Source: Dehalococcoidia bacterium
GTDB lineage: Bacteria > Chloroflexota > Dehalococcoidia > Bin125
Direction: 5' to 3'
Length of the DNA stretch: 48,809 nucleotides
Assembly (NCBI GenBank): GCA_022822375.1
Contig: JAJEBU010000123.1
Span: 1-48,809 of the forward strand
The position numbers were made by a program, and so were the translations under genes. A model generated the notes under the pieces. It was not told the origin of the DNA. It did not search any database and worked only from the letters and a program-made list of their open reading frames with translations. Below, one piece after another: positions 2,958-17,992 of this stretch (the first letter of the stretch is position 1; the number at the start of each line of letters is the position of its first letter).

Positions 2958-3096
2958 GTGCGGTGTCCTCTGGCTTGCTCTCTGGTCCGGCGCTCAGGCC
3001 GCTCTCTCTGGATTGGTGATCCGCGCGCACGGAGGTCTCACGTGCAGCGGGATTGGGTGCGATGGTGTCGTGTTGATTCGTGTCTGGCTCTGGGCG

Positions 3097-16521: not shown

Positions 16522-17247
16522 TCACTGCGCCCGAGCGGCGGTCCAGGCGTCGACGGTGCTGGCGCCCGCCTCGCGCAGGACCCGCGCTGCTTCGTTGAGT
16601 GTCGCCATGGTCGTGGCGACGTCATCGACGAGCAGGATGCCGCGTCCGTCCGCGAGCGCGGTGTCGGCCGCGAACGCTCCGCGCACGATGCGGCGGCGGT
16701 CAGCGCGCGATTGTGCTTGCGCCTGTCGCGGCCCCCACCACCCGCGTCGACGCAGGATCGATTCGTCCATCGGCAGGCCGATACGCTCCGACAGCGCTTG
16801 CGCGATGAACGCCGCCTGGTTGCCGCCGCGGCGTCGGCGGCGCAACAGCGGTATCGGAACAGGCACGATGACATCGATATCTGAGGCAGTCTGGAGCGAT
16901 CCAGCGAGCTCGACCAGCAGCGGAGCGATGGCCTGCACGCCCTGGTGTTTCAGCGTGAGCACGGCGGCGCGGACGGGCCCGTCGTAGACGAATCCGGCGC
17001 GCAGCTCGCGCAGCGGCAGGGGGCGCGACACGCAGTCCTGGCAGACGGGTGACGGCGACGGGAGCCAGCAGTGTCGGCAGCGTGTGCGGCCAGTTCCGCC
17101 GTCGGCGGGTTCGATCAGCTCCTGGCACTGGGGACAGATCAAGGCGCCGGCGGCGGCGCAGCAGGCGCAGTGCGGCGGCAGCGCGGTATCGGCGAGCGCT
17201 TCCAGTGCGGACCGAGCGGCGGCGAGCGGCGGATATGATGAATCCAT
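16522..17247 (-). CDS. ComF family phosphoribosyltransferase-like protein
   Basis: From MDSSYPPLAAARSAL; Cys-rich N-terminus CACC..CPQC..CRHC..CQDC; PRTase motif ILLVDDVATTMATLNEAARVL. Confidence 0.88.
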   Translation of the reverse strand: MDSSYPPLAAARSALEALADTALPPHCACCAAAGALICPQCQELIEPADGGTGRTRCRHCWLPSPSPVCQDCVSRPLPLRELRAGFVYDGPVRAAVLTLKHQGVQAIAPLLVELAGSLQTASDIDVIVPVPIPLLRRRRRGGNQAAFIAQALSERIGLPMDESILRRRGWWGPRQAQAQSRADRRRIVRGAFAADTALADGRGILLVDDVATTMATLNEAARVLREAGASTVDAWTAARAQ

Positions 17248-17260
17248 GCGGCTCACCGTA
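17234..17260. promoter_or_regulatory. Interlocked divergent -10 elements for comF-like gene (-) and moaDE (+)
   Basis: + strand TATGAT (17234-17239), 6 nt, ATG 17246; - strand TACGGT (17260-17255), 7 nt, ATG 17247. Confidence 0.6.
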
Positions 17261-17992
17261 CAACTCTTCGCCAACCTCGCCGAGACCTGCGGCACGCGCC
17301 AGGTCGAGCTCTGCGAACTCCCGCAGCCGCTGACTGCCGGGTTGGTGATGGACGCCTTTATCGACCGCTATCCGCAGCTCGGCGAGATGCGCGACTCAAT
17401 CATGTTCGCGGTCAACGCGGAGTACGTCGGCGCGGAGCATCCGGTGGCGATGGGCGACGACGTGGCGCTGATTCCACCGGTCAGCGGCGGCGCCGATGAT
17501 GAGTACTTCAAGATCACGCCTGATGTGCTCGATCCGACGGCGCTGCATGAGCTGGTCCTTTCTCCGCAGGCCGGCGCCGTCTCGCTGTTTGTCGGCGTCG
17601 TGCGGGACAACAATCTCGGCCGCGACGTGGACTATCTGGAGTACGACGCATATCCGGCGATGGCGACGAAGATCATGCGTCAGATCGCCGCTGAGATTCG
17701 AGCGCGCTGGGACGTGCTGGAGATCGCGATGCACCATCGCACCGGGCGTCTGGCGATCGGCGAGGCGTCCGTCGCCGTCGCGGTGTCGTCGGCGCATCGG
17801 GCTGACGGCATTGCGGCCTGCCACTACGGGATCGACCGCTTGAAGGCGATCGTGCCGATCTGGAAGAAGGAAGTGTGGGCCGACGGCGAGGAGTGGATCG
17901 AAGGTTCGCTCACCCCTTCGGCCGAGCTCACCGCCGAGATTACCGCCGAGGGTACCGGCGAGCCTGATGACGAGGGCGGGCGGTCTCAGTGA
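17246..17992 (+). CDS. MoaD-MoaE fusion (molybdopterin synthase, MoaX-like)
   Basis: MRLTVQLFANLAETCG...ALIPPVSGG (MoaD ending GG) followed by MoaE: VGVVRDNNLGRDVDYLEYDAYPAMA...HRTGRLAIGEASVAVAVSSAHR...VPIWKKEVW. Confidence 0.93.
   Translation: MRLTVQLFANLAETCGTRQVELCELPQPLTAGLVMDAFIDRYPQLGEMRDSIMFAVNAEYVGAEHPVAMGDDVALIPPVSGGADDEYFKITPDVLDPTALHELVLSPQAGAVSLFVGVVRDNNLGRDVDYLEYDAYPAMATKIMRQIAAEIRARWDVLEIAMHHRTGRLAIGEASVAVAVSSAHRADGIAACHYGIDRLKAIVPIWKKEVWADGEEWIEGSLTPSAELTAEITAEGTGEPDDEGGRSQ

Follow-up and report, generated by a model that had tools for sequence, protein, structure and literature searches.

Leaderless promoters, with a TANNNT -10 element adjoining the open reading frame, have been predicted widely, and TA-led genes were found in four of 12 Chloroflexi genomes, at 4.0-5.7% (Zheng 2011, PMC3160421). 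In Deinococcus (Deinococcus-Thermus), leaderless -10 promoters that are independent of a -35 element have been tested experimentally (PMC12340547). All these genes were described one at a time. Prokaryotic bidirectional promoters (Warman, Grainger and colleagues; PMC12825309, PMC10268837) yield mRNAs in both directions from a single short DNA segment: they have pseudo-symmetrical -10 elements, their divergent starts are mostly 18 bp apart (also 10 and 23), and in E. coli polymerase binding to them is reported to be mutually exclusive (PMC12825309). Divergent genes whose 5' ends overlap, finally, are usually treated as genome compression or annotation error. No published example of a leaderless divergent pair whose starts overlap turned up in the literature that we searched, which is not proof of absence.

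The window (the whole stretch of DNA that was analysed, 48,809 nucleotides from an uncultured Dehalococcoidia bacterium) contains a divergent gene pair with the following features:

17245 to 17248, both strands: CATG palindrome with the start codons of moaDE (plus strand, 17246) and comF (minus strand, 17247)
17246 to 17992, plus strand: moaDE, fusion of the small and large subunits of molybdopterin synthase, 248 aa
16522 to 17247, minus strand: comF-like phosphoribosyltransferase gene with N-terminal Cys motifs, 241 aa
17234 to 17239, plus strand: TATGAT, putative -10 element of moaDE, inside comF codons 3-5
17255 to 17260, minus strand (reads 17260-17255): TACGGT, putative -10 element of comF, inside moaDE codons 4-5 (ACC GTA)
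17252 to 17284, minus strand: block of extreme synonymous conservation, moaDE codons 3-13, reaching upstream of comF to about -37/-38

A base-by-base check (C17245, A17246, T17247, G17248) places the moaDE ATG at 17246-17248 and the comF ATG at 17247-17245, so that the two start codons overlap by 2 bp, exactly as the first-pass annotation had described. Its hexamer positions are likewise exact: TATGAT ends 6 nt before the moaDE ATG (12 nt from its first T to the A of the start codon) and TACGGT ends 7 nt before the comF ATG (13 nt). Both genes are real. MoaDE matches the Pfam families ThiS (7e-12) and MoaE (2.6e-39), as expected of a MoaD-MoaE fusion; the ComF-like protein matches Pribosyltran (8e-8) and TIGR00201 (4e-23, yet under the curated cut-off of that family). 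The gene starts were taken from homology, because both reading frames remain open upstream of the common CATG; a simple codon-model gene finder puts the comF start too far downstream. The ATG is kept for both genes in all 16 genomes that have the coupled arrangement (every one of the 15 genus members, plus G017 from a sister genus), and none of the other possible comF starts is preceded by a TANNNT at leaderless distance, in agreement with the start that had been claimed for comF. The nearest relatives that bear a name are MAGs, entered as Dehalococcoidia or as Chloroflexi/Chloroflexota bacterium.

The site is probably a face-to-face pair of leaderless promoters with zero intergenic DNA; this reading, in which the hexamers act as -10 boxes and transcription starts at the ATGs, is drawn from sequence comparison. 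It shares with leaderless TA-led genes (PMC3160421, PMC12340547) the TANNNT 6-7 nt before the start and the TACACT-type hexamers; a -35 is not recognisable and a Shine-Dalgarno is absent. Unlike in those genes, the two promoters are interlocked, each lying in the coding sequence of the other gene. In contrast to bidirectional promoters, the -10 elements (17234-17239 and 17255-17260) are outside the starts rather than overlapping or back-to-back between them, and the predicted starts, only 1 bp from each other, have crossed over. The 2 bp overlap of the start codons resembles that of divergent pairs with overlapping 5' ends, but here promoter layout and conservation could be traced. Thus, leaderless genes and divergent promoters are known kinds, and what is unusual is the geometry and the strength of its conservation.

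Genome-wide statistics, based on about 713 kb of the 2.72 Mb genome and 487 starts from the simple codon-model gene finder, support the leaderless geometry and show that the placement of the hexamers is no coincidence. A TANNNT is present 12 nt before 31 of the 487 starts and 13 nt before six, but only before about one or two at other short distances; at 3008 internal ATGs it occurs in 0% at distance 12 and in 0.07% at distance 13. Leaderless-type genes thus make up roughly 7% of the genes of this genome, which has Shine-Dalgarno-led genes as well. The consensus of the leaderless set is TA(G/C)(G/C)CT followed by G, with a pyrimidine at -1 in 86% (C 55%, T 31%), and the C on either strand of CATG supplies this pyrimidine for both predicted transcription starts. 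The C favoured before leaderless ATGs would create a CATG, which, being a palindrome, would give the same C-ATG on the opposite strand. Counting open frames that share a CATG gives no information, because long antisense frames are abundant at about 65% G+C. There was no enrichment for a -35 element in 61 leaderless promoters, and none is recognisable for moaDE or comF (the best, TCGGCG for comF, has 3/6 matches). G000 also has a second, smaller genome-wide excess of TANNNT, at distances of about 30 and 36-40 nt upstream of starts, as would fit promoters whose leaders are some 20-30 nt long.

The common CATG, the moaDE TANNNT at 12 nt and the comF TANNNT at 13 nt are each conserved in 16 of 16 coupled genomes. 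A search for the paired pattern (CATG plus both hexamers) hits the locus in 15/15 genomes of the genus; none of the few other matches, which lie among L159-L184, is a divergent gene pair, so there is no second interlocked pair among them (a variant with 13/13 distances gave two further matches, left out of this check). The moaDE-side hexamer is TAGACT in ten genomes, TACACT in four and TATGAT in two, within an invariant frame GA-TA-NNN-T-G (17232-17240): the hexamer middle and the sequence of the spacer vary, the spacing is fixed. Because this -10 sits in comF codons 3-5, ComF always has Tyr5 while its neighbours vary, and the Tyr5 codon is TAT in 15/15 genus genomes, though TAC accounts for 78% of Tyr codons.

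On the comF side, TACGGT is found in 14 genomes, TACTGT in one and TACGCT in one. Four of the six bases are fixed by Thr-Val of MoaD, leaving free only the first T and one middle base, so that conservation of the hexamer tests the reading only narrowly. The first T requires a GTA valine codon in moaDE, and GTA is present in 16/16 genomes, although it represents only 2.9% of the Val codons of the genome and 4.6% of those within the first 15 codons; three family members with separated starts have GTG, GTA and GTG at this position. Hexamers and CATG, whose conservation the first-pass annotation had proposed to check, are conserved beyond the needs of the proteins: by GTA and the surrounding synonymous sites in moaDE, and in comF by a TANNNT with free middle bases. 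Of the two promoters, that of comF is the less certain one: its fifth base is unusual (G, 6% of the leaderless set) and the 13-nt distance is the less used one.

Constraint at the DNA level is pronounced at the start of moaDE. When synonymous changes at four-fold sites were counted by parsimony on the genus tree, codons 2-13 had a mean of 0.5 changes, compared with 3.9 in the rest of the gene. None of 200000 random draws of eight other moaDE sites was as low, and no other non-overlapping window of moaDE came near this level. The same codons of control genes differ much less from the rest (pyk 3.0 vs 3.4, glyA 3.4 vs 3.8, imp 5.0 vs 4.0); cysE (1.0 vs 3.1) has two sites only and the AAA gene (1.75 vs 4.1) has four. 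Groups of the class with separated starts or without an upstream comF have ratios of 0.74, 0.99 and 0.97, compared to 0.13 here, at lower power because these groups are smaller (7 taxa each). Dual coding offers no explanation, as third positions face third positions in both frames. We read the conserved block (17252-17284) as putative promoter DNA of comF. Positions 17276-17283 (minus strand TCGGCGAG, comF about -30 to -37) are invariant in 16/16 coupled genomes, wobble sites included; this octamer is not a TTGACA-like -35 and is a possible regulator site or upstream promoter contact.

The extent of this constraint, to comF -37 and beyond the need of a bare -10, without a recognisable -35, also suits a different reading: only moaDE is leaderless, the promoter or a regulator site of comF lies deeper in moaDE (in the block up to 17284), TACGGT is incidental, and comF is translated with a short leader, perhaps via GGTGA as a weak ribosome site. 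A GGTGAG is indeed at a suitable distance from the comF start, and in two relatives of the same family the comF TANNNT stands at 34 nt, a distance that would imply a leader. However, the candidate Shine-Dalgarno GGTGA is broken in G012 and G017 while the TANNNT is intact there, as in all 16 genomes; a conserved Shine-Dalgarno is absent before either start across the coupled genomes, and wider relatives have the comF TANNNT at 12-14 nt. We consider this reading unlikely. It is still more improbable that the synonymous constraint reflects a need of the leaderless moaDE mRNA at its 5' end (structure or ribosome contact) and not comF promoter DNA. The four-fold third positions of moaDE codons 3-13 do avoid G, and the AAA gene is an example of mild 5' constraint elsewhere. 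Yet moaDE genes whose -10 is of the leaderless type but whose comF neighbour is separated are unconstrained (ratio of about 0.75), leaderless pyk and imp lack such constraint, separated family members carry GTG, CTG and GCG at these codons, and folding of the 60-nt moaDE 5' end is ordinary (z -0.34). The moaDE and comF 5' ends fold no better than shuffles, and an Rfam search near the site gave no match to an RNA family or riboswitch. That comF begins farther upstream (GTG 17256 or TTG 17274), with the conservation resulting from coding overlap, is hardly credible: in the genus, the comF frame does continue open upstream and its residues SARLAKSCTVRRM are largely conserved, but wobble faces wobble, 17278 and 17281 are invariant despite being four-fold in both readings, GTG in place of GTA would retain the Cys of the comF frame, G017 has no GTG start, and a -10 at leaderless distance precedes no start but the ATG.

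Among moaDE-type loci, 43 of 111 have a divergent upstream comF match (inside and outside the class; the loci are partly redundant between collections), and the divergent pair is common in other Dehalococcoidia. Relatives with an ordinary gap, which the first-pass annotation had counted against its reading if they lacked the hexamers, do exist, but the hexamers are not missing: the moaDE -10 is kept at 12-13 nt and several also have a comF -10 at 12-14 nt, which supports the leaderless reading. Paired leaderless -10s between comF and moaDE recur in Dehalococcoidia: in L075, L087-L091, L093, L094 and L110, a gap of 35-57 nt contains both (TACAAT for moaDE at 12-13, TATCCT or TACACT for comF at 12-14). 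In L067, L068 and L020, which belong to the same family as the locus, the gaps are 44-47 nt and the moaDE -10 is retained at 12-13 nt. The comF-direction TANNNT at 34 nt in L067 and L068 (around 2984-2994) overlaps the moaDE -10, with TA in common (TATCTT/TAGACT and TACCGT/TACACT); these two loci, without common start codons, do match the layout of bidirectional promoters. The L068 (G016) comF frame stops after 36 codons (around 2847-2955) and homology goes on in another frame, indicating either a frameshift or an assembly error.

The coupled genomes form one clade in trees of MoaDE (support 0.96), ComF (1.0) and the concatenation (1.0), and relatives outside it separate the two genes by a gap that carries the two leaderless -10 boxes. 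The interlocked form is therefore derived and arose once. The distance from the moaDE ATG to the ComF Cys motif is about 76 nt in coupled genomes and about 120-135 nt in the sisters; most simply, the arrangement would have originated when about 45 bp of intervening DNA were lost. The relatives form an evolutionary series, from a gap of 35-57 nt via overlapping -10s to full interlocking.

The preferred reading, a face-to-face pair of leaderless promoters, predicts the following mechanism. The housekeeping sigma factor would recognise the TANNNT at 17234 for moaDE and the TANNNT at 17260 for comF, both acting as -10 boxes of -35-independent leaderless promoters. Transcription would initiate at the A of the start codon or right beside it, so that the two mRNAs begin 1 bp from each other on opposite strands, both of them leaderless. 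In that case each core promoter would double as coding sequence of the other gene. Two polymerases would exclude each other, a feature of bidirectional promoters that we infer here from a footprint overlap of about 38 bp, and each elongating polymerase would traverse the opposite promoter; initiation would then alternate between moaDE and comF. Since each initiation would occupy, and then transcribe across, the other core promoter, the pair could conceivably be an either-or switch with obligate anti-correlation of molybdopterin synthase and ComF expression, selected since the ancestor of the two genera. We regard this as doubtful; if true, selection preserving the switch fixed codons in both proteins.

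Leaderless promoters may allow two divergent genes to reduce their common regulatory region to nothing. The locus would be a conserved natural case of promoter needs setting not just codons but also residues of the protein encoded opposite (V/S-Y in ComF), and the tightest form in which polymerase exclusion between divergent genes is testable. It also calls for caution, as synonymous sites at the starts of leaderless genes may be promoter DNA of the neighbour. At its other end, moaDE (plus strand) has a tail-to-tail overlap of about 53 bp with an AAA/DnaC-like gene on the minus strand (17940-17992 of the window).
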